64,000 nt of DNA from Microglena sp. YARC (lineage: Eukaryota > Chlorophyta > Chlorophyceae > Chlamydomonadales > Chlamydomonadaceae), in contig CM039462.1 of assembly GCA_022414725.1 (NCBI GenBank), positions 12,303,840 to 12,367,839 of the forward strand. Reading direction: 5' to 3'. The position numbers were made by a program, and so were the translations under genes. The notes below the pieces were generated by a model that ran no database searches, had not been told where the DNA came from, and saw nothing but the letters and a program-made list of their open reading frames with translations. Positions 689 through 50,976 of this stretch are shown here, piece by piece. How positions within the stretch are numbered: the stretch's first letter is position 1; every line of letters begins with the position of its first letter.

Positions 689-1319
689 CAACTATACACA
701 GGCAGCACCTTCTTGATACTGTAGTGGAGTCTGTATCCTATCTGGCGCTCACCAAAGCATCCTTGAATAGGGGGGGGGGCTGTATCCTATCTGGCGCTCA
801 CCAAAGCATCCAGGGCACTGGTATGTTGTTTTGAATAGGTTGGGGGCGAGGGGGGGGGGGGGGCTGTAAAAATACAGGCAGCACCTTCTTGATACTGTAG
901 AGGGGTCTGTATCCTATCTGGCACTCACCAAAGCATCCTTGAATAGGGATGGGGGGCTGTATCCTATCTGGCGCTCAACAAAGCATCCAGGGCACTGGTA
1001 TGTTGTTTGAATAGGTTGGGGCGAGGGGGGGGGGGCATGTAACAATACAGGCATCACCTTCTCTATAGTTCCCCACAAAAAAACCGGCAATACATATATA
1101 CATACAGGCATCACCTTCTCTATAGTTCCCCACAAAAAAGCAGGCAATACATAAATACATGCAGGCATCACCTTTTTGATAGCTCCCCCCCCAAAAATAC
1201 AGGCAATATATAAACAATACTGGAAGTACCTTCTTGATAGCTCCCCACAAATAATACAGGCAATACATAAATGCATAAGGCAATACATAAAAAATACAAG
1301 CAATACATACAGGCAGCAC
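688..1319. repeat. minisatellite built from an exon 3' end and splice donor
   Basis: About ten degenerate units containing the complement of GAGCTATCAAGAAG|GTGCTGCC, which is exactly the end of minus-strand exon 1481-1320 plus its donor. Short poly-G runs and AATACATA spacers separate the units. The array sits directly downstream of that exon and presents several alternative donor-like sites. Confidence 0.7.
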
Positions 1320-1481
1320 CTTCTTGATAGCTCCCCACAGACGAAGGAAGTCTTTGAACTGGAGACCGTCCTTTAGCTTCTGTACCCTCCACTTCCCTCT
1401 TGTGGTGCCCCTTGTGATGATGAAGTTGGCTTGGACACGACTCCCGCTCATGTGACGGCTGATGCTGTTGCCAGGCTCCAC
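1320..1481 (-). CDS. HNH-nuclease-like gene, exon 4 of the chain
   Basis: A 162-nt exon of exactly 54 codons on the minus strand. The acceptor is CACAAACAG at 1490-1482 and the donor is GTGCTG from 1319. It starts VEPGNSISRHMSGSRVQ, continues through ANFIITRGTTRGKW and ends FLRLWGAIKK. Both ends are phase 0, which fits the phase-0 end of the HNH exon 4741-4518 upstream in transcription, so I place it in the same gene. No catalytic motif is visible here; by position it would be the region after the HNH motif. At least eight degenerate copies of its first half lie at 1960-3660, and copies of its last bases form the array at 688-1319. Joining to the HNH exon is inferred from strand, order and phase; a transcript would settle it. 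Confidence 0.6.
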
Positions 1482-1947: not shown

Positions 1948-2125
1948 CTACCGTGTGATGATGAAATTGCCTAGCTCATGTGAGGGCTCATACTTTTGCC
2001 TGGCTCCACCTGTTTGTGTTTTTCCATTCTAGACTGTTAAATGGGCTTGCTCCATGAGTTGAATGAGATATTACTCTTCATTTATCTACCGTGTGATAGT
2101 GAAATTGCCTAGCTCATGCGGGGGC

Positions 2126-2320
2126 CAGGGTACTACTTTTTGTCAAATTGGTCAGCCCTTAAAAATCACAAACGTCAAATTGCTCAGCGCTTTCTAGTGC
2201 AAAAAGCGCAAAAACTGCGCGCTGCGTCCACAGGGGGTCGAAAAAACTGCGCAGAACGCGCAGTGGGGCTCAAAAAGCGTACGCGTAAACACGCTGCCGC
2301 GCGTGCTTTGTAGTACCCTG
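2126..2320. mobile_element. hAT-like MITE, family A copy 3
   Basis: Ends CAGGGTACTAC and GTAGTACCCTG, flanked by GCGGGGGC (2118-2125) and GTGGGGGC (2321-2328), a 7/8 match. 195 bp, non-coding. Confidence 0.8.
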
Positions 2321-3015
2321 GTGGGGGCTCATACTGCTGCCTGGCTCCACCAGTATCATATGATTGCATTTCGGGTAGATATGTCATGGCAGTCCAGGGG
2401 TAGCCAAATAGGGGATTAAATGTATTATTTGACCCCATGAGTTGAATGAAAGATATTATAGTATATCTAGCTCCGGCTTACGCTATGGTGTCCTTAACTT
2501 CACGTCCTGTGAGTAACTGTATTACACGGATGTAACAATTTCAATTTCAATTTCTATGAACCATGTGATAAGATAGTTGGCTTGGACACAACTCCCGCTC
2601 ATATAATGGCTGATGCTGTTGCCAGGCTCCACCTGCATTCAAGAGCTTTTTGATTATAGTTGGATTAGATTTGGATTAGAGTTGAATTAAAGATACAAGT
2701 TCATGTGTCTACCTTGTGACAGTGAAGGTACCAGGCCCCACCAGTAAATGAGTGCACTTTGATTAGATTTGGATTAGAGTTGAATGAGAGATACAAGTTC
2801 ATGTGTCTACCTTGTGACAGTGAAAGTACCAGGCTCCACCTGTAAACGAGTGCATTTTGAGTAGATATGGATTAGAGAATACAGCTAATATATATACCGT
2901 GCGACTGGGTGTGATGGTGAAGTTGGCTTGGGCACGACTCCGCTCCTGTTGCACCTGATGCTGTTGCCAGGCTCCACCAGTAAAAGAGTGTACTTTGAGT
3001 AAATATGGATTAGAT

Positions 3016-3226
3016 AATGATAACGCCTCGTGGGGCGTGGTATTAAGGGAGCCCGTCGTACGCGGGTAGGGAGTGGTCTTCTACCTCTACTGGACAAGCT
3101 ACCATCGAGGTTGATGACGACCTGCAACGCCAAGAGCGACCAAAGGGGGGATCGAACCCCCGACTCTTCATCCTCAGAGTGATTTAGTCTACCACTAGCC
3201 CAATGTATATCACTGAAAGGGACTAC
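3016..3226 (-). mobile_element. tRNA-derived SINE, copy S1
   Basis: Minus-strand copy. A tRNA-like head (about 3215-3136) carries a B-box-like GGGTTCGATCCCCC, then comes a body ending in the complement of AGGCGTTATC. It is flanked by ATGGATTAGA at 3005-3014 and 3227-3236, which looks like a target duplication, although similar text also occurs in the host array. The family also occurs near 8.5, 19.0, 21.7, 30.9 and 60.5 kb. Confidence 0.75.
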
Positions 3227-3847
3227 ATGGATTAGAGATTACAGCTTATATATCTACCGTGCGACCGGGTGTGGTGATTAAATTGGCTCGGACACAACTC
3301 CCGCTCATGAAGCACCTGATGCTGTTTCCAGGCTCCACCTGTAAACGAGTGCTGTTTAGTAGAGTCGGAGATTACAGCTAGTTTATCTACCATGCAACCG
3401 GGTGTGGTGATGAAGTTGGCTTGGGCACGACTCCTGCGCCTGTGGCACCTGATACTGCTGCCAGGCTCCACCTGTAAACGAGTGCTTTTGAGTACAGTCG
3501 GAGATTACAGCTAGTTTATCTACCATGCAACCGGTTGTGGTGATGAAGTTGGCTTGGGCACGACTCCCGTTCATGTGGCACCTGATGCTGTTGCCAGGCT
3601 CCACCTGTATCATATGATTGCTTTTGCAGTATACATGGTATGTATGTTTTTCGACTCTCATTCACTCCGGTATGGCCACTATGGGCCATTGCTTTAGCTC
3701 TAAGCAAGCCCATAATCTGTGGGTACTGAGGTGAGTGGCCCGTAGTACAGTCCAGGGGTAGCCAAATAGGCTATGCATTGGGCTTGCCTCATGAGTTAAA
3801 GAGAGATTACTCGCACCATATGATGATGAAGTTGCCTAAGGCATGAC

Positions 3848-4041
3848 CGAAGAACTTCCAAGCGCGCGCTTTTGTGCGCTGGCGCGCTGCCTTTTTGAGC
3901 CCCACTGCGCGTCTTGCGCAGTTTTTTGCAAACCCCTGTGGGCACAGCAAGCAATTTTTGCGCTTTTTGCTCTACAAAGCGCATTTTTTTGTTTTCAAGT
4001 GCGCTAAAGCGCTGGCCAATTTGGTCAATGGAAGTACCCTG
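3848..4041. mobile_element. hAT-like MITE, family A copy 4
   Basis: Inverted orientation relative to copies 1-3. The left end is decayed (CGAAGAACTTCC) and the right end is GGAAGTACCCTG. Flanks GGCATGAC (3840-3847) and AACATGAC (4042-4049) match 6/8, so this is an older insertion. Confidence 0.7.
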
Positions 4042-4517: not shown

Positions 4518-4741
4518 CTGTGAAATTATGTTGTGCATGAAGTCGTTGCCCTTGTGCGTGTTGGCCTTAGTGCAAGTGGCGACCAAGTTGGAGGCTTTGG
4601 TAAGCCCCCCCCTGGACCAGGGGAAGATGTGGTCGGAGTTGAAGTAGCATATAGATGCTGTAACGGCATTGAGGGAGATGACATTGCCGAAGGGGTCCAA
4701 GCGGAACTCATGTTGCAGCTCCTCAGGCATAGAAGCATCAC
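4518..4741 (-). CDS. HNH-nuclease-like gene, exon 3 (HNH motif)
   Basis: A 224-nt minus-strand exon: two bases completing a Gly codon, then exactly 74 codons to the donor GTAAGC (from 4517). The acceptor is CACACAG just upstream. It encodes DASMPEELQHEF, RLDPFGNVISLN and then a clear HNH core: SDHIFPWSRGG, SNLVATCTKAN, HKGN. The DH..P.S.GG...N...C..AN..K spacing is that of HNH endonucleases, metal-dependent DNA-cleaving domains. The incoming phase exactly fits exon 7329-7198, and the outgoing phase 0 fits exon 1481-1320. The acceptor side of this exon has been amplified into the arrays at 4700-6310. It is probably a nuclear gene of a lineage-expanded HNH family. Whether it is still functional is uncertain because the introns are repeat-packed. 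Confidence 0.75.
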
Positions 4742-5112
4742 CTGTGTGCGGGTGGAGGTTCGGGGAGGGTTTATGATGGGTGTGTGATGGATGGAGATTT
4801 GAATATTTGTGCTGGTTTTTGATTTGGAATGCAGCTGAACTCATGTTGCAGCTCCTCAGGCATAGAAGCATCACCTGTGTGCGGGTGGAGGTTTGGGGAG
4901 GGTTTATGATGGGTGTGTGATGGATGGAGATTTGAATATTTGTGCTGGTTTTTGATTTGGAATGCAGCGGAACTCATGTTGCAGCTCCTCAGGCATAGAA
5001 GCATCACCTGTGTGCGGGTGGAGGTTCGGGGAGGGTTTATGATGGGTGTGTGATGGATGGAGATTTGAATATTTGTGCTCTTTTTTGATTTGGAATGCAG
5101 CGGAACTCATGT
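4700..5112 (-). repeat. 133-bp minisatellite covering intron end plus exon-3 start
   Basis: Four units (start points near 4706, 4837, 4970 and 5104). On the minus strand each carries the acceptor CACACAG and the exon start ending in ATGCCTGAGGAGCTGCAACA, then intron-like sequence. Only the leftmost unit runs on into the full HNH exon. Confidence 0.8.
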
Positions 5113-6310
5113 TGCAGCTCCTCAGGCATATAAGCATCACCTGTGCGTGGGTGAAGGTTTGGGCAGGGTTTATGACGGGTGTGTGATGGGTGGGGGAGTA
5201 GGTGGGGCAGGGCGGTGCGGGGCTCCTCGGGCATGGAATCATTACCTGTGTGTGGGTAAAGGTTTGGGCAGGGTTTATAACGGGTGTGTGATGGGTGGGG
5301 GAGTAGGTGGGGCAGGGCGGTGCGGGGCTCCTCCGGCATGGAATCATTACCTGTGTGTGGGTAAAGGTTTGGGCAGGGTTTATAACGGGTGTGTGATGGG
5401 TGGGGGAGTAGGTGGGGCAGGGCGGTGCGGGGCTCCTCCGGCATGGAATCATTACCTGTGTGTGGGTAAAGGTTTGGGCAGGGTTTATAACGGGTGTGTG
5501 ATGGGTGGGGGAGTAGGTGGGGCAGGGCGGTGCGGGGCTCCTCGGGCATGGAATCATTACCTGTGTGTGGGTAAAGGTTTGGGCAGGGTTTATAACGGGT
5601 GTGTGATGGGTGGGGGAGTAGGTGGGGCAGGGCGGTGCGGGGCTCCTCCGGCATGGAATCATTACCTGTGTGTGGGTAAAGGTTTGGGCAGGGTTTATAA
5701 CGGGTGTGTGATGGGTGGGGGAGTAGGTGGGGCAGGGCGGTGCGGGGCTCCTCGGGCATGGAATCATTACCTGTGTGTGGGTAAAGGTTTGGGCAGGGTT
5801 TATAACGGGTGTGTGATGGGTGGGGGAGTAGGTGGGGCAGGGCGGTGCGGGGCTCCTCGGGCATGGAATCATTACCTGTGTGTGGGTAAAGGTTTGGGCA
5901 GGGTTTGTAACAGGTGTGTGATGGGTGGGGGAGTAGGTGGGGCAGGGCGGTGCAGGGCTCCTCGGGCATGGAATCATTACCTGTGTGTGGGTAAAGGTTT
6001 GGGCAGGGTTTGTAACGGGTGTGTGATGGGTTGGGGAGTAGGTGGGGCAGGGCGGTGCGGGGCTCCTCGGGCATGGAATCATTACCTGTGTGTGGGTAAA
6101 GATTTGGGCAGGCTTTATGATGGGTGTGTGATGGGTGGGGGAGTAGGTGGGGCAAGGCGGCTCCTCAGGCATGGAATCACCACCTGTGCATGGGTATAGG
6201 TTTGAGCAGGCTTTATGATGGGTGTGTGATGGGTGGGGGAGTAGGTGGGGCAGGGTGGGGCGGGGCGAAGCTCATCAGACAGGCAATCAGCACCTGTGCA
6301 TGGGTGTAGG
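5112..6310 (-). repeat. 105-bp minisatellite, about ten units, acceptor-derived
   Basis: Units repeat every 105 bp. The minus strand reads an acceptor-like CCACACACAG followed by GTAATGATTCCATGCCCGAG, a diverged version of the exon-3 start. Because 105 is divisible by three, three long frames (370-420 codons) stay open through the array. They are repeat artefacts. Confidence 0.85.
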
Positions 6311-6351
6311 TTAGTAGTAGGGGGAGGTTAGTGGGTTGGGGGAGGAGGAGT

Positions 6352-6405
6352 TACGGAATGAATCACCACATTGGGGGAGATGTCACTGCCAAAGGGGTCC
6401 AACCG
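6352..6405 (-). pseudogene. partial duplicate of the HNH exon
   Basis: The minus strand reads FRLDPFGSDISPNVV, matching FRLDPFGNVISLNAV in exon 4741-4518, then diverges. It lacks the HNH core. It is probably the far end of the duplicated block that seeded the 105-bp array. Confidence 0.6.
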
Positions 6406-6409
6406 GAAG

Positions 6410-7195
6410 TCTGGAACCCACAAACAGTCTCACCCAACTCAAACCCACCATCAGGATAACCACCTCAACCACCTCAAACTCACCATCAACCACTCACCAC
6501 CATAAACCCACCATCAAGATAACCACTAACCACCTCAACTCACCATCAACCACTAACCACCTCAACCACCTCAAACTCACCATCAACCATTAACCACCAA
6601 AAACCCACCATCAGGACAACCACCTCAACCACCTCAAACTCACCATCAACCACTAACCACCTCAACCACCTCAACCTCACCATCAACCACTAACCTCCTC
6701 AACCACCTCAAACTCACCGTCAACCAATAACCACCTCAACCACCTCAAACTGAACATCAACAACTAACACCACTAACCCACCATCAAGATAACCACCTCA
6801 ACCACCTCAAACTCACCATCAACCACTAACGGCCACAACCACCTCAAAGTCACTATCAACCACTAACCACCTGAAACTCACCATCAACCATTAACCACCT
6901 CAACCACCTCAAACTCACCATCAACCACTTACCACCTCAAACACCTCAAACCCACAATCAGGATAACCAACTCTACCACCTCAAACTTACCAGCAACCTC
7001 TAACCACCTCAACCACCTCAAACTCACCATCAACCACTAACCACCAAAAACCCACCATCAAGATAACCACTAACCACCTCATCCTCACCATCAACCACTC
7101 ACCACCTCAACCACCTAAAAATCACCATCAACCACTAACCACCACAAACCCACCATTAAGATAACCACCTCAACCACCTCAACCACCTCAAACTC
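6410..7195 (-). repeat. minisatellite derived from the donor of exon 7329-7198
   Basis: Repeats of CAACCACCTCAAACTCACCA with variants. On the minus strand this is GGTGAGTTTGAGGTGGTTG, i.e. the donor GTGAGT and the first intron bases of exon 7329-7198, copied more than ten times. Confidence 0.75.
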
Positions 7196-7197
7196 AC

Positions 7198-7329
7198 CAT
7201 CAGGATTGCTGTAGAGGGCCTGCAGCTCACGCTGCGTGCTTGGGGGCTCAACCAGATTGTTCCAAGCTGATTTCATGTTTTCCAAGGTGGTAGTTTGGTT
7301 CTTCTTTACACTATTCTTTTCACGTTTGC
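7198..7329 (-). CDS. HNH-nuclease-like gene, exon 2
   Basis: A 132-nt minus-strand exon: two bases, 43 codons, one base. The acceptor is CCCACAG and the donor GTGAGT. It reads KREKNSVKKNQTTT, ENMKSAWNNLVEPP, ELQALYSNPD. Incoming phase 1 fits the end of exon 9932-9685 (KYPEG across the junction). The outgoing phase 1 fits exon 4741-4518 (NPDG across the junction). This phase agreement is the main evidence that the scattered exons form one gene. The segment is basic and then helical, with no known catalytic residues. Its acceptor is immediately preceded by a 0.5-kb GAGT microsatellite, and its donor has been amplified. Confidence 0.7.
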
Positions 7330-7872
7330 CTGTGGGTGGGTGGGTGGGTGGGTGGGTGGGTGAATGAGTGGGTGGGTGGGTGGGTGGGTGGGTGGGTGAA
7401 TGAGTGGGTGAATGAGTGAGTGAGTGAGTGAGTGAGTGAGTGAGTGAGTGAGTGAGTGAGTGAGTGAGTGAGTGAGTGAGTGAGTGAGTGAGTGAGTGAG
7501 TGAGTGAGTGAGTGAGTGAGTGAGTGAGTGAGTGAGTGAGTGAGTGAGTGAGTGAGTGAGTGAGTGAGTGAGTGAGTGAGTGAGTGAGTGAGTGAGTGAG
7601 TGAGTGAGTGAGTGAGTGAGTGAGTGAGTGAGTGAGTGAGTGAGTGAGTGAGTGAGTGAGTGAGTGAGTGAGTGAGTGAGTGAGTGAGTGAGTCAGTGAG
7701 TGAGTGAGTGAGTGAGTGAGTGAGTGAGTGAGTGAGTGAGTGAGTGAGTGAGTGAGTGAGTGAGTGAGTGAGTGAGTGAGTGAGTGAGTGAGTGAGTGAG
7801 TGAGTGAGTCAGGGAGTGAGTGAGTGAGTGAGTGAGTGAGTGAGTGAATGAGTGAATGAGTGGGTGGTTGGG
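7330..7872. repeat. (GAGT)n / (GGGT)n microsatellite, about 0.5 kb
   Basis: Almost uninterrupted GAGT from about 7400 to 7855, flanked by GGGT. Single-base variants at about 7694 and 7810 are the only interruptions. It lies in the intron directly upstream of exon 7329-7198 (transcription on the minus strand). Confidence 0.95.
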
Positions 7873-7974
7873 TGGGTGAAAGGTCCCAAGCAAGGAGTAT
7901 ATTTACAATAATGGTGACTGAGTCACTTTTTATGTTCATGTTCATGTTTATGTTCATGTTCATGTTCACGCGGC

Positions 7975-8275
7975 ATGGATGGGAGGAAGGGTAATGAGGG
8001 GAAGGGGATGAGGGGGAGGAGGAGAGGGAGGTGAGGGGGTGAAGGTATGAGGGGCAGGGGAGGGGGGGAAGGAAAGGTCATGAGGGGAAGGGGATGGGGG
8101 TGGGGAGGAGGAGAGGGAGGCAAGGTAATGAGGGGGAGGGGAGGAGGAGAGGTAAGGTAATTAGGGGAAGGGGAGGAGGAGAGGGAGGCAAGGTAATGAG
8201 GGGAAGGGGAGGAGGAAAGGGAGGTAAGGGGGTGAAGAGATGAGGGGCAGGGGAGGGGGGGAAGGAAGGGGGGAT
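7975..8275. repeat. purine-rich minisatellite
   Basis: Units of GAGGGGAAGGGGAGGAGGAG with GGTAATG spacers. One strand is almost purely purine for 300 bp, so triplex or G-rich structure is possible. Confidence 0.8.
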
Positions 8276-8296
8276 TTTTTTACCTGCATAGCCTCT

Positions 8297-8408
8297 CAGC
8301 TAGGGGGAAGTTAGCCCGTGGATAGACAGCCCGGGGGTGGGGGGTTAGAGGTTGAGGGTTTAGGGTTAAACCACACCATCCCCGGGCTGGAAAAACCCGG
8401 GCTAACTT
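8297..8408. mobile_element. short inverted-repeat element
   Basis: The arms GGGGGAAGTTAGCCCG and AGCCCGGG at the left are mirrored as CCCGGGCT and CGGGCTAACTTTCCCC at the right, around a GGGTTTAGGGTTAAACC core. It looks like a small foldback or MITE. No target duplication was identified. Confidence 0.55.
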
Positions 8409-8529
8409 TCCCCTACCAGACTCTCACCTTCCGGTTACTTGCAGTCAAACTTCTCTAGATCCTGCTCAAGCTCCCCTGGCCCCACATCTCCCCACCCCCC
8501 CACCCCCCCACCCACAAACACACAAAAAA

Positions 8530-8612
8530 GATAACGCCTGGAGGGGCGTGGTTTTAAGGGGACCCTCCTAATCGCCGTCGCTGGGGAAAGTCACCATGGC
8601 AGACATAGTAAG
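8530..8612 (-). mobile_element. tRNA-derived SINE, copy S2 (3' part)
   Basis: Matches the S1 tail (GATAACGCCTGGAGGGGCGT...ACCATGG) but stops before the tRNA-like head. Confidence 0.55.
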
Positions 8613-8699
8613 TGTCACCCTCCAGGCGGTAGGGAATCCTTCACGCAAAGTGTGGCAAGAATGCTGGTTACAGGAGACAATAGATTCTCTGAGCAACTT

Positions 8700-9500
8700 T
8701 TAGATGCTCCTCTAGACACTGCTCACCTTCAGGGTACTTTCTCGCAAACTAACCGTCAACCAACTCAACCACCTAAAACTCACTTTCAGGGTACTTTCTC
8801 ACAAAATCACCTTCAATCAATAACCACCTCAACCACCTCAAACTAACCTTCAGGGTACTTTCTCGCAAACTCACCGTCAACCACCTCAACCGCCTCAAAC
8901 TAACCTTCAGGGTACTTTCTCGCAAACTCACCGTTAACCACCTCAACCACCTCAAACTAACCTTCAGGGTACTTTCTCGCAAACTCACCTGCAACCACTA
9001 ACCACCTCAACCACCTCAAACTCACCTTCAGGGTACTTTCTCGCAAACTCACCTGCAACCACTAACCACCTCAACCACATCAAACTAACCTTCAGGGTAC
9101 TTTCTCGCAAACTCACCTGCAACCACTAAACACCTCAACCACCTCAAACTCACCTTCAGGAAACTTTCTCGCAAGCTCCTGTAGATATTTCTCAAGTTCC
9201 CTAAGCCTACAGGTCCTGAGGGTACTTCCTCACAAACTCACTTTCAACCACTAACCTACTCAACCACCTCAACCATCTCAACTACCTCAAACTCACCTTC
9301 AGGGTATGTTCTCGCAAACTCACCATCAACCACCACCAACCACCAACCACCTTAGCCACATAAAATTCTCATCAAACCACTAACCACCTCAACCACCTCA
9401 AACTCACCTTTAGGGTACTTTCTCGCAAACTCACCCTCAACCACTAACCACCTCAAACTCACCATCAACCACTAACCACCTCAACCACCTCAACCACGTC
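8700..9500 (-). repeat. minisatellite from the donor of exon 9932-9685
   Basis: Units about 64 bp long on the minus strand contain TTGCGAGAAAGTACCCTGAAG followed by GTGAGT, i.e. the last residues of the exon (KYPEG) and a GT donor, plus intron text GAGGTGGTTGAGGTGG. At least eight units. Confidence 0.75.
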
Positions 9501-9502
9501 AA

Positions 9503-9630
9503 GCTCGCCTTCAGGGTACATTCTCGCAAGCTCCTCTAGATATTTTTCAAGTTCCCCAAGCCCCATAAATGTCTTCTCCCCTCCAGCGGGCATTTGCAAA
9601 TTGAAGACAAGCCTGTCCTGCTTCACTCTA
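9503..9630 (-). pseudogene. partial duplicate of exon 9932-9685
   Basis: The minus strand reads DRLVFNLQMPAGGEKTF, then GELEKYLEELARMYPEG, a near copy of the second half of exon 9932-9685. It is out of frame with it because the duplication joint shifts the reading frame. Confidence 0.7.
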
Positions 9631-9684
9631 GATATTTCTCTAGTTCAGCGTACTTTTTCATAAGCTCCTCTAGATATAACTCGC

Positions 9685-9932
9685 CTTCAGGGTACTTTCT
9701 CGCAAGCTCCTCCAGATATTTCTCAAGTTCCCTTAGCCCCACAAATGTCTTCTCCCCGCCAGTTGGCATTTGCAAATTGAAGACAAGCCTGTCCTGCTCC
9801 ACTCCTGGGTCATGCTTTACTAATGCTGACAGATCATCTGTTGTGGTGATGCGGTTCAGAATGTCTTGGCGGCCTGGGGTTTCTGGGTGTTGAAAGTCAC
9901 GAGGGAATGCCTCCCCATGGCTCCAATCATAC
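9685..9932 (-). CDS. HNH-nuclease-like gene, exon 1 of the chain
   Basis: A 248-nt minus-strand exon: one base, 82 codons, one base. The acceptor is CATAACAG (just above 9932). It reads YDWSHGEAFP, RDFQHPETPGRQDILNRI, TTTDDLSALVKHDPG, VFNLQMPTGGEKTF and a helical ELEKYLEELARKYPE. The donor position carries GCGAGT rather than GTGAGT, so it is either a GC-AG intron or a mutated donor; copies with intact GTGAGT lie just downstream. The end phase joins exactly to exon 7329-7198. The first 35 or so residues are the unit that is tandemly repeated upstream at 9933-11935. The true start codon and any earlier exons were not found. The domain is unrecognised except through its link to the HNH exon. Confidence 0.65.
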
Positions 9933-11935
9933 CTGTTATGAGCACCGGAACCTGGAAAGCAATGGGGGGAGTAGGTTTTTTTGTCGGGGTGACGCGGTTC
10001 AGAAGGTCTTGCCAGCCTGGGTTTTCTGGGTGTTCATCATGAGGGAAAGACTCCCCTGGGGTCCATTTATACCTGTCATGAGCTGGGAATCCTGAAAAGC
10101 AATGGGGGGAGTATGATTTGTTTTTGTCGGGGTGACGCGGTTCAGAAGGTCTTGCCGGCCTGGGATATTTCGGTGTTTAAAGTCACGAGGGAATGCCTCC
10201 CCAGGGCTCCAATCATACCTGTTATGAACACCGGAACCTGGAAAGCAATGGCGGGAGTATTTGTTTTGTCAGGGTGACGTGGTCTTGCCAGGTTTTCTGG
10301 GTGTTGAAAGTCATGAGGGAAAGACTCCCCTGGGGTCCATTTATACCTGTAAATGAGCTGGGAAACCTGAAAAAAAAAAGCAATTTGGGGAGTATCATTT
10401 GTTTTTGTCAAGGTGATGCGGTTCATAAGGTCTTGCCGGCCTGGGATATTTGGGTGTTGAAAGTTACGAGGGAAAGGCTCCCCTGGGATCCATTTATACC
10501 TGTTATGAGCACCAGAACCTGGAAAGCAATGGGGGGAGTAGTATTGTTTTCCGGGGTGAAGCGGTTCAGAAGGTCTTGCCAGCCTGGGTTTTCTGGGTGT
10601 TGAAAATCATGAGGGAAAGACTCCCCTGGGGTCCATTTATACCTGTCATGAACTGGGAAAGCTGAAAAGCAATGGGGGGAGTATGATTTGTATTTGTCGG
10701 GGTGACGCGGTTCAGAAGGTCTTGCCAGCCAGGGGTTTCTGGGTGTTGAAAATCATGAGGGAATGCCTCCCCAGGGCTCCAATCATACCTGTTATGAACA
10801 CCGGAATCTGGAAAGCAATGGCAAGAGTATTTGTTTGTGTGGGGGTGACGTGGTCTTGCCAGGTTATCTGGGTGTTGAAAGTCATGAGGGAAAGACTCCC
10901 CTGGGGTCCATTTATACCTTTAATGAGTTGGGAAACCTGACAAGTAATTTGGGGAGTATCATTTCTTTTTGTCGGGGTGACGCGGTTCAGAAGGTTTTGC
11001 CAGCCTGGGTTTTCTGGGCGTTGAAAATCATGAGGGAAAGACTCCCCTGGGGTCCATTTATACCTTTAATGAGTTGGGAAACCTGACAAGTAATTTGGGG
11101 AGTATCATTTGTTTTTGTCGGGGTGACGCGGTTCAGAAGGTTTTGCCAGCCTGGGTTTTCTGGGTGTTGAAAATCATGAGGAAAAAACTCCCCTGGGGTC
11201 CATTTATACCTGTTATGAGCTGGGAAAGGCTCCCCTGGGCTCCATTTATACCTGTAATGAGCTGGGAAACCTGATAAGTGATTTGGGGAGTATGATTTGT
11301 TTTTGTCAAGGTGATGCGGTTCAGAAGGCCTTGCCGGCCTGGGATATTTGGGTGTTGAAAGTTACGAGGGATAGGCTCCCCTGGGCTCCATTTATACCTG
11401 TTATGAGCACCAGAACCTGGAAAGCAATGGGGGGAGTAGTATCGTTTTCCGGGGTGAAGCGGTTCAGAAGGTCTTGCCAGCCTGGGTTTTCTGGGTGTTG
11501 AAAGTCATGAGGGAAAGACCCCCCTGGGGTCCATTTATACCTGTAATGAGCTGGGAAACCTGAAAAGCAATGGGGGGAGTATGATTTGTATTTGTCGGGA
11601 TGACGCGGTTCAGAAGGTCTTGCCAGCCTGGGGTTTCTGGGTGTTGAAAATCATGAGGGAAAGACTCCCCTGGGGTCCATTTATACCTGTAATGAGCTGG
11701 GAAACCTGAAAAGTGATTTGGGGAGTATGATTTGTTTTGCCAAGGTGATGCGGTTCAGAAGGCCTTGCCGGCCTGGGATATTTGGGTGTTGCAAGTTACG
11801 AGGGAAAGGCTCCCCTGGGCTCCATTTATACCTGTTATGAGCACCAGAACCTGAAAAGCAACGGGGGGGGGGGAGGAAAGTTTCTGTCAGGTTGATGATG
11901 TTCAGAAGGTCTTGCCGGCCAGGGGTGTCTGGGTG
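9933..11935 (-). repeat. array of about 15 copies of the exon-1 start
   Basis: Units roughly 140 bp apart on the minus strand. Each has intron-like text ending ATTGCTTTTCAG, then the acceptor-like CATGACAG, then codons for YKWTPGESFPHDFQHPE and GWQDLLNRIT. Units alternate between a W-P-G-E type and a W-S-P-G-E type. The units are open over the coding part, so this could be an exon-repeat region or a decayed array. Confidence 0.75.
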
Positions 11936-11939
11936 TTGA

Positions 11940-18093: not shown

Positions 18094-18288
18094 CAGGGTA
18101 ATTCAAAGCGCGCGCTTTTGAGCTTTTGAGCGCTGACTTTTTGACCCCCTCTGCGCTTTAAGCGCAGTTCTTTGCAACCCCTTGTGGGCGCTGCAAGCAA
18201 ATTTTGCGCTTTTTGCACTACAAAGCGCAGTTTTTTTGTTCTCAAGTGCGCTAAAGCGCTGGCCAATTTGGGCATTTGAAGTACCCTG
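18094..18288. mobile_element. hAT-like MITE, family A copy 5
   Basis: Left end CAGGGTAATTC, right end GAAGTACCCTG, with a family A interior. The 8 bp after the right end (GTACATGC, 18289-18296) recur not next to the left end but at 17988-17995, with 98 unrelated bases between. Confidence 0.7.
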
Positions 18289-18922
18289 GTACATGCATGT
18301 TCGCAAGTTAGGTTTGGCTACCATGATTGGTTATCCACCAATAAATGGCACCAACAGAAAAACAGCAATAGACAGAGAGACAAATTTTCAAATAGCTTTT
18401 AAATAAGCGGTAGATGTATTGCTGCACATATACATACGAGTGTGTAAGTCAGGTGTGGCTAGCATTATTGCGCTTTCCACCAATAAATGGCATCGAAACC
18501 TGAACAGAAATTGACAGTGAGGAAAGTGTTCAAATATATTTCAATAAATGCAGGAGGTAGCATCCTCTACGAAAAATTGACGGATGCCGATCGATTTATT
18601 ATAAGTATAGGATGTATATAACATAATTATTTGCGATGTATTGAGCATTTTTTCTGATTTTTCTGGGCACTTGTTTTGTTTTTTTGGGGGGGGGGGGGGG
18701 GGGGGGGGGGGAAGTAAGAAGCAAATTTATTGCTGCATATTTACGTACAAGTGCGCAAGTTAGGTTTGGCTACAGTTTTGTGGCGGTCCACCAACAAATA
18801 GCACCGCAGGCAGAACAACTATGGGTGGAGTGGGTAAGTGTCAATCAACTTTCCATAAAAGTGTAATAAGCGGTCGAAAACTTTCAATAAATCTGTGTTA
18901 GCAGGTAATGTATTTCTGCGCA

Positions 18923-19068
18923 TTCCCCCTTCGGTCGCTCTTGGCGTTGCAGGTCGTCGTCAACCGCGATGGTAGCTTGTCCAGTTGAGGTAGGAGACCG
19001 CTCCCACCCGCGTACGACGGGCTCCTTTAACACCACGCCCCACCAGGCGTTATCATTACCTTTTTTTT
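18923..19068 (+). mobile_element. tRNA-derived SINE, copy S3 (5' truncated)
   Basis: Starts in the B-box region (CCCCCTTCGGTCGCTC) and ends CCAGGCGTTATCATTACC plus a T run. Flanked by TATTTCTGCGCA and TATTTCTGCACA, a likely target duplication. Confidence 0.7.
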
Positions 19069-20092: not shown

Positions 20093-20816
20093 CTGAAAAG
20101 TTTGGGGAAAGGTTCCCAGGAGGGGCCCTGTTTCTAGCTTTGTTAGGAGAAGATCCTCGAGACTTCTTGCCTGTGTAACCACTGAAGTTTGGATGCTGGT
20201 TCGGCAGGTTGTGCTGCTGGCTGGGGAGGGGGGGTGGGGAGCTGGCCCCCACGCGGGTCTTAAAGGGGGTAGTGTTCCTCCGCTTTCCCTTGAACTTCTC
20301 AGGTGATGAGTCTCGACTCATTGGGGGGTTGTTCTCCCCCTGACCTGGTGGGTGGTAGGGCGGGTTGGACAGGTGGGCAGGGGGGCTGCCCGGCCTGCCT
20401 CCCCCTCGTGGCTTCAAAGGGGAAGTGTGATGCCTTCCCTTGACTTTCTCAGGTGATGAGTCTCGACTCATTGGGGGGTTGTTCTCCTGCTGACCTGGCG
20501 GGTGGTTGGGCGGGTTGGACGGGTGGACAGGGGGGCTGCCCGGCCTGCCTCCTCCTCGTGGCTTCATAGGGGAAGTGTGACGCCTTTCCTTGGCTTTCTC
20601 TGGTGATGAATCTCGGCTTATGGAAGTGGTGTCATCTCTTGGCGGTCTGTTTGGAGAAGTGCCCCAGACCTTCGGAGGCGTGCTATTATTTTTCTCCCGC
20701 CGCGCCTTGTTCGGTGAGGAGCCCCGGCTTTTGGGAGGGCTGTTGTCCCTTGGTCCTTTGGTCTTGTCTGGTGAAGCCCCCCTTTCCTTAGGGGGGCTCT
20801 CATCCCGCGATTCCAT
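20093..20816 (-). CDS. SP-rich disordered protein, first coding exon
   Basis: A minus-strand frame from an ATG at 20816 runs about 241 codons to a canonical donor (TTTTCAG|GTGAGA, GT at 20092-20091). The protein repeats SRDSSPEK, RGSSPNK, TSPxKPRGGGRPGSPP and NPPMSRDSSPE, so it is basic, proline/serine-rich and almost certainly disordered, resembling SR/SP-type RNA-processing or chromatin-associated proteins. Many S-P sites would be targets of proline-directed kinases. A tandem duplication of a 150-bp block (PGSPP...NNPPMSRDSSPEK) is visible. The next exon was not found: a family D element abuts the donor side. Function is not assignable; it may be a gene fragment. Confidence 0.45.
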
Positions 20817-21613: not shown

Positions 21614-21722
21614 CGAGAATGCCTGGTGGGGCTTGGTATTAAGGGAGCCCCGTCTAACTGTGGTAGAGAACGTGCTGCTACTTTACCTGGGCAAAGCTAC
21701 CATGGCTGTTGACAATTGTTTC
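21614..21722 (-). mobile_element. tRNA-derived SINE, copy S4 (partial)
   Basis: GCCTGGTGGGGCTTGGTATT to GCTACCATGGCTGTTGACAA matches the SINE body; the tRNA head is absent. Confidence 0.55.
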
Positions 21723-28700: not shown

Positions 28701-28727
28701 CATGTTTTGCACACACCACTCCCACAA

Positions 28728-30470
28728 GCTTGTTGCTATTTTCACCTCTCACCCATCACCCATGCTTTTGTTGCGATTCTGCCAACTGAGCCACATGCAG
28801 GATCTATGTGTGAGTTCACTCTCACATCACATCCAACACCACTGCCACCATCTTGCTGCTATATTCACCTCTCACCCATCACCCATGCTTTTTGTTGTGA
28901 TTCTGCCAACAGAGCCACATGCAGGATCTATGTATGAGTTCCATCTCACAACGCATGCACACCACTGCCACAAGCTTGAAGCTATGTTCACCTCTCACCC
29001 ATCACCCATGCTTTTTGTTGTGATTCTGCCAACAGAGCCACATGCAGGATCTATGTATGAGTTCCATCTCACAACGCATGCACACCACTGCCACAAGCTT
29101 GAAGCTATGTTCACCTCTCACCCATCACCCATGCTTTTTGTTGTGATTCTGCCAACAGAGCCACATGCAGGATCTATGTATGAGTTCCATCTCACAACGC
29201 ATGCACACCACTGCCACAAGCTTGAAGCTATGTTCACCTCTCACCCATCACCCATGCTTTTTGTTGTGATTCTGCCAACTGAGCCACATGCAGGATCTAT
29301 GTGTGAGTTCCATCTCACATCACATCCAACACCACTGCCACCATCTTGTTGCTATATTCACCTCTCACCCATCACTCATGCTTTTTGTTGTGATTCTGCC
29401 AACAGAGCCACATGCAGGATCTATGTATGAGTTCCATCTCACAACGCATGCACACCACTGCCACAAGCTTGAAGCTATGTTCACCTCTCACCCATCACCC
29501 ATGCTTTTTGTTGTGATTCTGCCAACTGAGCCACATGCAGGATCTATGTGTGAGTTCACTCTCACATCACATCCAACACCACTGCCACCATCTTGTTGCT
29601 ATATTCACCTCTCACCCATCACCCATGCTTTTTGTTGTGATTCTGCCAACAGAGCCACATGCAGGATCTATGTATGAGTTCCATCTCACAACATATGCAC
29701 ACCACTGCCACAAGCTTGAAGCTATGTTCACCTCTCACCCATCACCCATGCTTTTTGTTGTGATTCTGCCAACTGAGCCACATGCAGGATCTATGTATGA
29801 GTTCACTCTCACATCACATCCAACACCACTGCCACTATCTTGTTGCTATATTCACCTCTCACCCATCACCCATGCTTTTTGTTGTGATTCTGCCAACAGA
29901 GCCACATGCAGGATCTATGTATGAGTTCCATCTCACAACACATGCACACCACTGCCACAAGCTTGAAGCTATGTTCACCTCTCACCCACCACCCATGCTT
30001 TTTGTTGTGATTCTGCCAACTGAGCCACATGCAGGATCTATGTGTGAGTTCCATCTCACATCACATCGAACACCACTGCCACCAGCTTGTTGCTATATTC
30101 ACCTCTCACCCATCACCCATGCTTTTTGTTGTGATTCTGCCAACAGAGCCACGTGCAGGATCTATGTATGAGTTCCATCTCACAACGTCATACCACTGCT
30201 ACAAGCTTGAAGCTATGTTCACCTCTCACCCATCACCCATGCTTTTTGTTGTGATTCTGCCAACTGAGTCACATGCAGGATCTATGTGTGAGTTCCATCT
30301 CACATCACATCGAACACCAATGCCACCAGCTTGTTGCTATATTCACCTCTCACCCATCACCCATGCTTTTTGTTGTGATTCTGCCAACAGAGCCACATGC
30401 AGGAGCTATATGTGGGTTCCGTCTCACGACACATCCAACACCGCTGCCACAAGCCTGTTGCCATCTTCCA
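28728..30470. repeat. satellite with 247-bp higher-order unit
   Basis: About 14 monomers of roughly 124 bp (CACCTCTCACCCATCACCCA ... CCACATGCAGGATCTATGT). Two monomer types mostly alternate: one with GAGTTCCATCTCACAACGC and TTGAAGCTATG, the other with TCACATCCAACACC and TTGTTGCTATA. Equivalent points recur at 29288, 29535, 29782 and 30029, exactly 247 bp apart. Long frames are repeat artefacts. Confidence 0.9.
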
Positions 30471-30790: not shown

Positions 30791-30828
30791 AAATACAGGT
30801 ACATATCGGTAGTCTTATGGTTGCTTGT

Positions 30829-31042
30829 AGCCCGTTTCAGTGATATGATTGTTCTAGTGGTACACCAAATCGCTTTAACGACGAAGGGTCGGGGGTTCGA
30901 TTCCCCCTACGGTCACCCTTAGTGTTGCAGGACGTTGTCAACCGCGATGGTAGCTTGTCCAATCGAGGTGGTAGACCGTTCTCTGCCCGCGTAGGACGGG
31001 CTCCCTTAACACCACACCACACCAGGCGTTAGCATAACCTTT
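30829..31042 (+). mobile_element. tRNA-derived SINE, copy S5 (full length)
   Basis: 214 bp. The tRNA-like head has an A-box-like TTGTTCTAGTGG and a B box GGGTTCGATTCC. The body follows (GTTGTCAACCGCGATGGTAG, GACGGGCTCCCTTAACACC) and the end is GGCGTTAGCATAACC plus T's. It is flanked by a 14-bp duplication TTATGGTTGCTTGT (30815-30828 and 31043-31056). The anticodon arm does not fold cleanly; a tRNA-Val-like source is possible. The long flanking duplication is typical of LINE-mediated insertion. Confidence 0.85.
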
Positions 31043-45932: not shown

Positions 45933-46528
45933 TACATATCCTATTGATGAGGGGGTGTCTGACGCATGGACAGACTAGGCAGTATGATAAGAAAGTTTGA
46001 AGTGAACATTACCTTGCATTATCTGCATTTCTGGCTAACATTTGAACATTTCCCCCTTTTTACTGCCGTGGTTAAATTCCCAAGCCAATGATAGTATTGA
46101 TGTTTATGCCCAGCATGACTCATTTGAGTCACACTTGAATCTGGTTTAAATAGAAAAATATGTAAAAAGGATTCCGCCATTGGTAACCCGAGCCAATCGA
46201 TGGCGCCCCCCAAATCTGTAAAATCCGCCAATCCTTAACAGCACTGATTATAGGCCATTTCCCGCCATGTATATTTTCCGCCAGCCCTAAGTGCGCCAAC
46301 TCTTTTGTAAGAGTGGAAATTGCCATTTGAACTGAATCCTGGTGTCGCTGGTTTGTGTTGGGCGCAGGGTACTTCCAAGCGCAGCCTTTTTTAGCCCAAT
46401 AAGCGTTTCGCACAGTTTTTTGCAACCCCCTATGGGCGCAGCAAGCAATTTTTGCGCGTTTTGCACTACAAAGCGCAGTTTTCTTTTTGCAAGTGCGCTA
46501 AAGCGCTGGCCAATTTGTTCAATAGAAA

Positions 46529-47150: not shown

Positions 47151-50100
47151 GGATGCACTGTCGGAGTCCAACGCTACAGCATTTCACCAATGGCTGAAGG
47201 ACATCTATCTCTCAGGATATTAAGGTGATGGAGGAAGAAAGTATAGACATGCCCCCACATAAGATAAAACTGAATTATAAGATCTACATCTTGGACCAAA
47301 TGTCCCCGGCACTCAGAATACAGTACAAGGATTCCATGCACATAGACCTCATGTACTGGCTCAAAGATGTTTATGCAGACTGGTATTTTGAGAACGTGGA
47401 CCCTTCCACAGATCTTGTGCCATTCCCATGGCTCAACATGAGACCCTTTTACAAAACTAAAGATGAGGAGTCAATACCCCTAACAAACGCCAGCACAAGT
47501 CCTCAACAACCACAGCAAGACAACAAACCCAGTACTCACTATGCTCTTAATGCAACCAAACACACACGAAGCATATACAAAAACTGGATCATGGACACAG
47601 GTGCAACCTCGCACATGACTGGAGATGCCAGCCTTCTATATGACATAAAAGACATAAACCCCATAAAAGTCCTCACAGCCTCTGGCCATACCTACATTAC
47701 AAAGTCTGGCACAGCCCTCATCAAAGGAGAGAATGGCAAACTTCACAACCTCCTCAATGTCCACCTTAACTCAGACCAGAACACACCCAACTTGTTCTCA
47801 ATGGCATCAGCTATCAAAAATGTACCCAACATGGAAATCAAATTCACCTCTAACGAAGGTACCATGACCATCAATAACAAAGTCATCATCTCAGGATCCA
47901 AGAAACGTAACCTGTACCTAGTCCCTGTAGTCAAACATGATCCTACACTGATCAGAGGATCAGAATACACGACAGCTGTAGCAATGGCAGCCGTCTCCAG
48001 AAAGACCCCTATGACAGCTGAACTTCAACACATTAGATTAGGACATCTAGCCTACAGCTCCTTAGCAAGAATGGCCTCAGAAGACATGGTCATTGGAAAC
48101 GACATCACCTCATCTGCATTCAGGAAAATGAGTAAACAAACCTGTGAGATCTGCATCCTCTCCAAGATGGACAAAAACCCCTACCCCACATCTCACACCA
48201 GAGCTACCAGCAGACCCATGGGAATCATTCACATTGACATGAGTGGAAAAATGAAAATTCCTAGCCTGAATGGCAGCCTCTACTTCCAAGGCATTCTAGA
48301 TGATTACTCAAAATACTCCATTGTCACATTTCACAAAACCAAGAGTGCAGTAGCCAGTGCAACAATCACTGAGCTTGTACGGTATGAAGTCCTCACCCAG
48401 AACAAAATTGGAACTGTTTTCTGTGACAATGCATCAGAATACATTTGCAACAGATTCAAAAATTGGTGCAAAAGGAAAGGAATCACCCTCAATTTCACAG
48501 TTCCAGGCAACCCTTCTACAAATGGTGCAGCAGAACGCCTGAACAGAACCCTGCATGACAGATCCACAGCCCTCCTCCTCTCATCCAAATTCCCCAACAG
48601 GTACTGGGCAGAAATGGTCAAAAATGCAAGCATCCTCAGAAACCTTTCACCAACCTCTGAATCCGACAAAACACCCTATGAACTCTTCCATGGCATCAAG
48701 CCTAAGATATATCACCTCAGGACCATTGGCTGTACAGCATATGTACATGTTCCACCTAAGTCAAGAGATTTCAAGTTCTCACCCTCAGCCAAAATTACCA
48801 GGCTCATTGGATACTCAGACTCAAGAAAAGCCTACAGAGTGGTAGACTCCTCACACAAAATCTTTGACGCCAGAGACATAACTTTCAATGAATTTGAAAA
48901 TCTGGCAGGTCAGAAAGGATTCCCAGGTGCAGATGCTGTGGTACTAGGAAACTATGAAGATGATATCCCAGTTGAAATTGATGAAGATGACCCTACACCA
49001 GCTGTACCTGCTATCCCCACCCAGTCTGAACTCATAGAAAGAGAGTACATTCTTGCCAGACAAGCTAAGTATCAGACCAACCCACAAGTGTGGGGCCTAC
49101 CAGACAACCTCTCTTCTAACCCTGACACAGTGTACCAACCTACCTTCACAATTCCAGCATCCAATCTCACACCAGCAGCCAGTACACCAAATAACCAAAC
49201 TGTTGAACAAGGAGATGAACACATCCCTCAGGAAAATGATGATCCCCCTAACCCCCCATCTCCACCACCCCAGGAGCTGCCCACACCTCCAAGCCCTGGC
49301 ATTCCCCCACCACCAGAAATAGACCCATCCCTAGTTGAACCTAGAAGAACTGGCAGAGAAAGGCACTCACCAAACTTTCTAGCATTCCTAGCTGCAGACC
49401 AAGTTATCATTCCCAAAAATGAAAAAGAAGCCCTTTCTAGCCCCCAGGCCAAAGAATGGAAAGCTGCTATGCAAGAAGAACTAGCAGCACTTGCACAGAT
49501 GAACACCTGGTCCCTCTCAGAACTCCCATCAGGAGCCAAGGCTATAGGAACCAAGTGGGTCTTCGACATCAAACAATCAGTTGATGGAGAAATTGTCAGG
49601 TACAAAGCAAGAATAGTTGCCAAAGGGTATGCCCAACGCCCAGGCATGGACTATGATGAAGTTTTTGCACCAGTGGCCAAACATGCTACCATCCGTTACA
49701 TCCTCTCAATGGCAGCCAACCCCAAGGCATACCTAGCACAGTTAGACGTTTCCACAGCATTCCTCAATGGCATAGTTGAAGAAGAACTGTACTGCACCCA
49801 ACCACCATGATTCGAACAGGACCACAGGGTCTGCCGCATGTGGAAAGGCCTTTATGGCCTCAAACAAGCTTCTCGCCAGTGGCACCTCAAGGTAAAAGAA
49901 GATATGACTGCTATAGGATTCAAAGAGGTAGACGTAGACCAAGTTTCTATTTTTACTCCCTAACTCAGCCAACAAGCCCATAATCTGGGTACTTCTCTGG
50001 GTTGATGACTTCCTTATTCTGTCCTTTGACAAAAACATCCTAGACAAGTACAAGACCACCATCATGACGCTGTACAAGACTAGAGACCTTGGTGACCCCT

Positions 50101-50976
50101 CAGTTTTTGTTGGCTATGAGATCACAAGGAATGCATCAACTGGCACCCTACACATCTGCCAGTCCAGGTTAATCCAGGACCTGCTGCGTGCCCACAACAT
50201 GCTTCTTGAACCCAACAGCACCAGATCCCCTGTGCCTCTCCTACCAGATGCTCTCCTGCCCTATGCTGGCAAAGATACCCCAGCCACCAGCCTACCCCTT
50301 GCCCAATTTGTGGGCTCCCTCAACTACCTGGCAGTTAACACAAGACCTGACATTGCCCAAGCAGTCAACAGATTGGCCAGACACATTGCACACCCATTGC
50401 ATGACCACATGGAAGCTGCCACTGGTATCCTCAAGTATCTGTCTAATACACCAGACCATGGCATCACCTACACCTTCTCCAACAAGCCTCTCATTGGTTA
50501 CTGTGATTCTGACCATGCTGCCTGCCCAATCACAAGGAAATCCACTACAGGTTTTGTATTCCTCAACCAAGGGGGAGCAATCTCATGGGCATCCAAGATC
50601 CAGGCATCTATCTGCTACAGCCTTGTCCACAACAGAGGCTGAGTTCATGGCAGCTACCTCTGCAGCCCAGGAGGGAATGTGGTTGAGAAAACTACAACAC
50701 TCTGCCACAGGCATAGTTCCCCCTGCTCTCACCATTAATGGTGACAACCAAGCCGCCCTTAGTGCCTGGAACCAGGAGAAACTTTCATCCAGACTGAAGC
50801 ACATGGAGACCAGGTTCTACTTCCTCAAGGAGCAGTCCAAGAAAGAAGGTATCAAACTAAACTGGATCCCAACTGCTGCCAACATGTCTGACATGCTCAC
50901 CAAAGCTCTGCCCAGGGCCAAGTTCTGTGACTTCAGAGAGAAGATTGGCTGCATTGGCAAGCTCAAAATGGAATAA
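47151..50976 (+). pseudogene. copia gag-pol, multiply broken
   Basis: A short gag start (MDALSESNATAFHQWLKDIY at 47151) ends in a stop and frame change. The main frame (47225-49810, 861 codons) carries the protease WIMDTGATSH (Asp124), the GAG-pre-integrase H..H/C..C (LGHLAY ... CEIC), the integrase DDE residues (IHIDMSG, FCDNASEY, GAAERLNRT) and the start of RT (QLDVSTAFLNG). It stops at a TGA (49808-49810). The remaining RT with WVDDFLIL (about 50005) and the RNase H parts (GYCDSDHA, TEAEFMAATSA) follow after frameshifts at about 49930-49985 and 50610. Only about 125 residues precede the protease and no CCHC knuckle is seen, so gag is truncated. It cannot make a normal polyprotein as written. 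Confidence 0.9.

Follow-up and report, generated by a model that had tools for sequence, protein, structure and literature searches.

A model in which introns are gained through tandem genomic duplication has been described (Rogers 1989 and Hellsten 2011, both cited in PMC4974935), with a case in potato RdRp (PMC4974935), cases in Drosophila (PMC2891723) and a review (PMC3443670). In these sources, the duplicated segment carries AGGT or spans an intron–exon boundary, the old exon edge becomes intron material, and the potato RdRp duplicate also puts exon sequence into the mRNA (PMC4974935). The window analysed here, 64,000 nucleotides of the green alga Microglena sp. YARC, holds an HNH-like gene whose introns contain up to 14 extra copies of the gene's own splice junctions. 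Hits of CCT4 and CCT1 place the genome among the chlamydomonadalean green algae. As in that model, tandem duplication of a junction- or AGGT-bearing segment was found at this gene and at chaperonin (CCT) and kinesin loci. However, whereas the cases described there mostly show one extra copy and one new intron, introns already present in the alga are extended by as many as 15 copies, many junctions in several genes are involved, and the protein is apparently unchanged.

In fission yeast, two genes carry 24-bp AGGT repeats with an intron across them (Zhu and Niu 2013, as reported in PMC4974935). The alga likewise has several tandem AGGT-bearing copies crossed by an intron; yet the yeast units, on that second-hand account, are short and lie in two genes, whereas algal units are mostly 40–230 bp and occur in three gene families. 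For the human 6-16 gene, Turri 1995 names a minisatellite of splice donors and places the extra donors in the transcript in its title (PMC4526556). Donor copies arrayed at an exon border, as that title suggests, are also found in the alga at donor 9684 and at CCT1a 7497 and CCT1b 1429. The algal arrays differ from that of 6-16, which we take to be IFI6, in comprising acceptors as well as donors and in being known from genomic sequence alone, whereas the title sets the human donors in the transcript. Introner elements are repeated sequences that compose introns and form families dispersed across many genes. Algal introns are similarly composed of repeated sequence, but each array duplicates its own junction locally, as shown for exon E1: a search of the 568-Mb genome with E1 DNA, which ignores very common words, gave 16 matches, all at the E1 locus, ruling out a dispersed intron element for this exon. 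Genome-wide intron growth by junction-spanning arrays was not found among titles and abstract openings, with subscription journals little covered.

Results

Introns of an HNH-like gene contain copies of its own splice junctions

The first-pass annotation had chained four exons by phase into an HNH-nuclease-like gene, and this model stands as a sequence-based prediction: E1 to E4 join into a single open frame with GT/GC...AG borders, and the predicted protein matches Pfam HNH_5 (E 2.9e-7), HNH and HNH_4, all above cut-off (Table 1). A protein search returned the deposited model P0001 as sole match. The E1 translation is identical to residues 303-385 of P0001, which stops ~60 nt beyond E1, lacks exons 2-4 and takes one array unit as an exon.

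Table 1. Features of the HNH-like locus (a slash within a motif marks the exon border)
Feature	Position	Strand	Description
First exon of P0001, deposited model at the locus	20093..20816	-	Serine/proline-rich; placed by tblastn of P0001, end inferred from split codon
E1-acceptor array	9933..11939	-	Period ~146; intron end + AG/GT + ~90 nt of E1 start; 14 extra copies
Exon E1	9685..9932	-	Acceptor AG/GT 9933/9932, donor GC 9685/9684; open frame in predicted chain
E1-donor array	8698..9683	-	Exon end + donor at spacings of 57-176; 11 extra copies are clean
(GTGA)n microsatellite	7332..7866	-	Adjoins E2 acceptor; without exon sequence
Exon E2	7198..7329	-	Predicted from open frame and phase only; donor GTGAGT
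E2-donor array	6440..7202	-	~8-9 nt of exon end only; 22-nt unit GGTGAGTTTGAGGTGGTTGAGG common with E1-donor array
E3-acceptor array	4700..6299	-	Periods 133 and 105; intron end + AG/GT + ~42 nt of E3; 14 extra copies
Exon E3	4518..4741	-	Carries HNH motif; predicted from open frame and Pfam match
E4-acceptor copies	1981..3610	-	7 extra, some within arrays of 98 and 133 bp; dispersed elements intervene
Exon E4	1320..1481	-	Predicted from open frame and phase only
E4-donor array	698..1319	-	4 clear extra copies and 1 weak (884)

Formal alignment, in which a junction copy of this gene had to match at least 28/40 nt, confirmed that array units align to the exon borders of E1, E3 and E4. The copies of acceptor plus exon start reported beside E1 and E3 were both recovered: acceptor 9932 has 13 more copies and a further one at 10350 offset by 4 nt, acceptor 4741 has 14 more, and AG/GT is present in 14/14 at each. 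Seven copies of acceptor 1481, at 2009-3604, had been overlooked, and AG is present in five of these. The reported copies of exon end plus donor hold at 9684 and 1319, but at 6410-7195 they take in just ~8-9 nt of the exon. Donor 9684 has 12 more matches, 11 of them clean and one degraded (9642); the real donor is GC, and GT is found in 10 of the 11 clean copies. At donor 1319, the copy at 884 is weak (22/30 nt, when the unrelated place 17010 scores 24). In the 6410-7195 array, six places match 15-16/20 nt, and the intron-side unit is that at donor 9684. At the same threshold, no copies were found for acceptor 7329, which the GTGA microsatellite adjoins, or for donor 4517.

Junction copies recur in unrelated genes

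The comparison set comprised the HNH gene and five CCT genes chosen before their arrays were seen. Of the ~11 PF00118 genes tabulated with several exons, these five have the most exon matches (5-7 each); for CCT6 and CCT7, any ambiguous junction was excluded ahead of counting. CCT exon limits were placed using proteins from other organisms, and it is therefore use of the exon-adjacent copy that preserves the conserved protein. The six genes lie on four contigs (46-195 Mb), and a local copy was found at 28/66 of their junctions, including only 1/8 in CCT7 and 4/14 in CCT4; donor arrays include CCT1a 7497 (6 copies) and CCT1b 1429 (5 copies). None was found at the four junctions of the two introns shorter than 100 nt (76 and 99). 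The intron side holds 103 of 105 junction copies, the remaining two being matches to the neighbouring intron; this polarity is forced by geometry and is uninformative on splicing.

Kinesin genes, for which 122 of 325 candidates were scored, have ten partial exon copies, every one on the intron side of the full exon and with the geometry of tandem duplication over one junction, as DNA confirms for L072 and L073. Recurrence within the HNH introns, as first described, thus holds, but its restriction to one gene does not, and since unrelated CCT and kinesin genes behave alike, a peculiarity of the HNH gene is ruled out.

CCT1a and CCT1b are 86.8% identical over 341 aligned residues and have one private intron each. 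The ends of these introns lack similarity to the opposite exon, and no signature of birth by the AGGT model was found; the difference may reflect either gain or loss. The CCT1b assembly departs from EukProt model P0122 by small indels and a stop, so the gene may be mis-sequenced or decaying.

Copy coverage does not peak at junctions

Coverage by tandem copies goes from 0.44 at the junction to 0.51-0.74 more than 100 nt into introns, and in exons it falls off over about one unit, to 0/373 positions past 150 nt; no peak was found at junctions. In the CCT genes alone, it is 0.47-0.77 at 100-900 nt from the junction and 0.22 beyond 900 nt (844 positions). After a 10-mer block shuffle, one per gene, the proportion of positions having a copy of this kind was 0-0.0002, ruling out chance similarity; an assembly artefact is unlikely because copies inside one array differ from one another.

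The earlier reading had proposed a local duplication process tied to exon–intron borders. Repeated tandem duplication over borders is borne out; the tie itself is unneeded. A mutational process aimed at these borders, whether transcription- or splicing-coupled or driven by AG/GT microhomology, would account for every copy in the two HNH acceptor arrays retaining AG/GT, and a junction or junction copy is found in 24/45 intronic arrays against 38% of duplications spanning a junction in a simulation of junction-blind growth, which starts from an 80-nt intron and counts events, not arrays. However, besides the missing peak, the other 21/45 arrays have no junction copy, arrays overhanging exons number 8/40 against 7.2 expected under random placement, and copies take in anywhere between ~5 and ~120 nt of exon, which places their break points away from the junction. 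The overhang count took arrays of period 25-500, the junction-content count took periods 40-500, and both counts set the HNH upstream intron to an assumed 2.1 kb. We therefore regard border targeting as unlikely. The coverage profile fits junction-blind duplication plus selection better than splice-site seeding. Because 24/45 exceeds the simulated proportion, duplication may nonetheless have a mild junction bias and not be fully junction-blind. The simulation also predicts that 87% of junctions are hit at least once, whereas a copy is visible at 28/66, so a junction-blind model needs old copies to decay.

Stepwise removal of the arrays by recursive splicing, with GT-to-AG units spliced as small introns or used as ratchet points, is suggested by the units of the E1- and E3-acceptor arrays, all of which run GT...AG (AG/GT in 15/15 of each, with the real site and a copy offset by a few nucleotides counted in). 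However, among acceptors that have been copied, the real sites CCT1a 1879 and 3955 and CCT4 4464 read AG/AT or AG/GC and therefore regenerate no donor at the junction, and we consider this reading very improbable.

Nearly all intact decoys would disrupt the frame

The splice dinucleotide of the real site is matched in 80/103 copies. Of the 89 intact decoys (AG or GT kept), 34 score at least as high as the real site on a matrix built from the same real sites. When paired with their normal partner, 55 cause a frameshift, 32 bring in an in-frame stop and 2 stay open. Among 39 adjacent pairs, conservation of the acceptor AG among copies ranks 3 and that of the donor dinucleotide 27, the latter lowered by the GC reference at 9684. 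The shared dinucleotides and high scores could suggest that selection maintains many alternative sites and diversifies the product, as had also been proposed, but with 87/89 intact decoys breaking the frame or adding a stop, donor dinucleotides showing no special conservation, and arrays present in CCT genes with strongly conserved proteins, this can scarcely be the explanation.

Discussion

We think it likely that these introns are enlarged by tandem duplication that is blind to junctions and passes a selective filter on coding sequence. Segments, mostly of ~40-230 bp, would be duplicated in tandem frequently and anywhere in the gene. A duplication entirely within an exon would damage the protein and be lost, whereas one entirely within an intron, or over a single junction, would leave the exon complete and still bordered by a functional junction, and be tolerated, the extra exon edge and splice site copy joining the intron. 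As units often equal or exceed the presumably short ancestral intron in length, the earliest duplications would have to cross a junction, and further rounds would turn the copies into minisatellites. To yield an intact protein, the spliceosome would have to pick the copy beside the full exon, that is, the 5'-most donor and the 3'-most acceptor; this choice would give the shortest exon and the longest intron, as exon definition predicts.

Much more tentatively, introns genome-wide may have expanded mainly by duplications overlapping exon edges, with a spliceosome that reliably passes over as many as 14 near-identical intronic decoys, even where these are stronger; evenly balanced against doubt, this broader claim falls slightly on the doubtful side. 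If true, the genome would be a natural experiment in splice-site choice by position relative to the exon, and would hold a route that continuously converts exon sequence to intron.

These arrays bear on two old questions, by what means introns grow longer and on what basis the spliceosome chooses among similar sites. They offer a simple way in which long introns full of repeats could arise, and they can lead gene predictors to mistake array units for exons. Conserved housekeeping genes here hold replicate donors and acceptors that are alike in sequence and differ in position, so cDNA across them would tell whether position decides.

Splice-junction copies in the HNH-like gene

The four-exon chain (E1–E4) that the first-pass annotation proposed for an HNH-like gene is supported at the sequence level: a single open frame runs across E1–E4, and the chained protein contains the HNH domain. 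The sole match of a protein search with this gene is P0001, the deposited model of the same locus in the 568-Mb assembly (the contig bearing the window spans 195 Mb). P0001 takes one unit of the acceptor array (~11566-11396) as an exon and stops after 9952-9626, so the evidence for E2–E4 consists of phase and the HNH domain.

Junction copies were scored in 40-nt windows centred on each border, with at least 28 identical positions required within 3 kb. Six of the eight borders have such copies, in keeping with the earlier claim that the introns of this gene are filled with copies of its own junctions. For one of the six borders, donor 7197, both copies sit in the neighbouring intron. The weakest case is the E2-donor array. 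Its unit is also that of the E1-donor array and recurs, 20 or more of its 22 nt matching, at 19 places, which lie in introns 1 and 2 and at the E2 donor. This 22-nt donor-bearing unit fills two different introns of one gene, as though the minisatellite had been carried over from donor to donor. The earlier list of copied junctions was also incomplete, having overlooked seven further copies of acceptor 1481, two of which satisfy the stricter 40-nt-window test. One CAGGGTACTAC-ended element lies among the E4-acceptor copies. With E1 as a DNA query against the whole genome, all 16 matches fell at the HNH-like locus; the junction arrays are local.

Features of the window and junction counts in the genes compared (junctions copied locally / junctions scored)
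Feature	Position	Junctions	Remark
HNH-like gene, E1–E4	9685..9932; 7198..7329; 4518..4741; 1320..1481	6/8	strand (-)
P0001 gene model	start 20816; ~11566-11396; 9952-9626		then stop
22-nt donor-bearing unit	6440-7202; 8848-9509
CCT4		4/14
CCT1a		7/11
CCT1b		6/14	L071
CCT6		4/11
CCT7		1/8
CAGGGTACTAC-ended element, full	478-668; 1765-1947; 2126-2320
CAGGGTACTAC-ended element, partial	3933-4023; 18172-18270; 46420-46517		element (full or partial) also in stretches L035, L036
~210-bp element	3019-3230; 30826-31031; 18922-19054; 21615-21712		also in stretches L035, L036, L059
Long open frames	47198-50973
123/247-bp unit array	28712-30454		14 copies

Other repeats in the window

A dispersed, MITE-like element of ~185-195 bp has inverted CAGGGTACTAC ends, which match 12 times in the window with at most one mismatch (1.06 expected); its full copies there are 81-83% alike to the 1765 copy. 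Copies of a second dispersed element, the ~210-bp one and possibly a SINE, are 74-92% alike, some of them partial; by eye it has a tRNA-B-box-like stretch, and ARAGORN made no tRNA calls on the window. The long open frames look, by eye, like a Copia-type retrotransposon polyprotein. The 123/247-bp unit array, whose longest open frame reaches 264 codons, lies outside the junction-copy finding.

Junction copies in conserved genes

A PF00118 search gave 64 exon matches, and the five chaperonin (CCT) genes richest in them formed our sample. Exons were placed by spliced alignment, those of CCT4 and CCT1 to their own gene models and C. incerta and C. reinhardtii proteins, and those of CCT6 and CCT7 to PDB zeta and eta chains. 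Once own gene models and organism-less entries were set aside, the best matches of CCT4 and CCT1 were Volvox, Astrephomene, Chlamydomonas, Sanguina and Haematococcus proteins, which places the organism among the chlamydomonadalean green algae. TRF found arrays entering or copying exon ends in all five genes, in CCT7 at a single junction. Pooled with the HNH-like gene, 28 of 66 junctions have a local copy, and 103 of 105 copies lie on the intron side, the remaining two being the E2-donor matches to HNH intron 1. CCT1b shows a stop and a small indel (L071, ~4840-4860 and 6147-6189) where its EukProt model P0122 is intact, reflecting base errors, an allele difference or decay; because of indels in this assembly, CCT1b is to be weighed lightly.

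Kinesin genes behave alike. An exon search gave 128 matches with 122 of 325 candidates scored; at 8 places among these, 10 partial copies in all adjoin a more complete match. Copies with the exon end lie downstream and those with the exon start upstream (10/10); two of 12 pairs were uninformative, partial copy facing partial copy. In the DNA of two kinesin loci, CAG precedes the junction in each of three acceptor copies, and of three donor copies one has lost GT.

At the protein level CCT1a and CCT1b share 86.8% identity across 341 aligned residues. Arrays at shared introns are unlike: acceptor 1879 (CCT1a) has 5 copies and 1267 (CCT1b) 0, whereas donor 2041 (CCT1a) has 0 and 1429 (CCT1b) 5. 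Arrays were therefore gained or lost after gene duplication. Each paralogue has one specific intron, which follows 7497 in CCT1a and 3113 in CCT1b; the ends of these introns do not resemble the opposite exon, so there is no signature of birth by the AGGT model.

Intron growth and the exon–intron border

The suggestion that duplication is tied to exon–intron borders fared less well. Tandem-copy coverage was profiled over CCT4, CCT1a, CCT1b and HNH. At the junction itself it amounts to 0.44 (41 junction windows passing a complexity filter); within 100 nt of the border the intron has 0.30-0.44, and further inside 0.51-0.74. Towards the exon, coverage falls from 0.50 in the first 10 nt to 0.20 at 80-100 nt and 0.09 at 100-150 nt, with none at 373 positions beyond 150 nt. 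For the three CCT genes taken alone, junction coverage is 0.40; it lies at 0.47-0.77 for intron positions 100-900 nt from the border and at 0.22 for the 844 positions farther in than 900 nt. Shuffling each gene once in blocks gave 0-0.0002. In the same four genes, 8 of 40 intronic arrays extend 10 nt or more into an exon; random placement with an overhang of up to one unit would give 7.2. In a growth simulation with introns starting at 80 nt, observed unit lengths and only coding damage rejected, 38% (34-42%) of duplications cross a junction and 87% of junctions are predicted to be hit at least once. Coverage profile, overhang count and simulation thus do not need targeting of duplications to junctions, although 24 of the 45 arrays in the six genes include a junction or a copy of one, which leaves room for some targeting.

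Among 35 introns or parts of introns, several of which have assumed ends, the median length is 1148 nt, against published medians of 198-343 bp for six core-Reinhardtinia species (PMC8226300) and a mean of 788 bp for Limnomonas (PMC11228838). Potato provides a documented duplication across an intron–exon boundary (PMC4974935), fission yeast has AGGT repeats (as cited in PMC4974935), and for Drosophila duplications of coding sequence that carry a proto-splice site are described (PMC2891723). Donor minisatellites are reportedly the subject, by title, of Turri et al. 1995. Among the papers listed in our literature searches, none was found that presents junction-copy arrays as the main way in which the introns of a genome lengthen.

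Decoys and splice-site choice

The splice dinucleotide is intact in 89 of the 103 intron-side copies (AG 54, GT 35). Joined to their normal partners, 55 of these decoys would shift the frame, 32 would stay in frame with a stop and 2 would keep the frame open. Scored with matrices built from the 66 real sites themselves, 34/89 equal or exceed the real site; with HNH excluded, 10/21 donor and 5/26 acceptor decoys do so. Conserved genes therefore live with comparably strong decoys, above all donors. The protein-preserving choice, the 5'-most donor and 3'-most acceptor, would, we infer from sequence, be the one expected under exon definition. Under intron definition the pair nearest to each other across the intron would be preferred, and a first-come mechanism would use whichever acceptor comes first.
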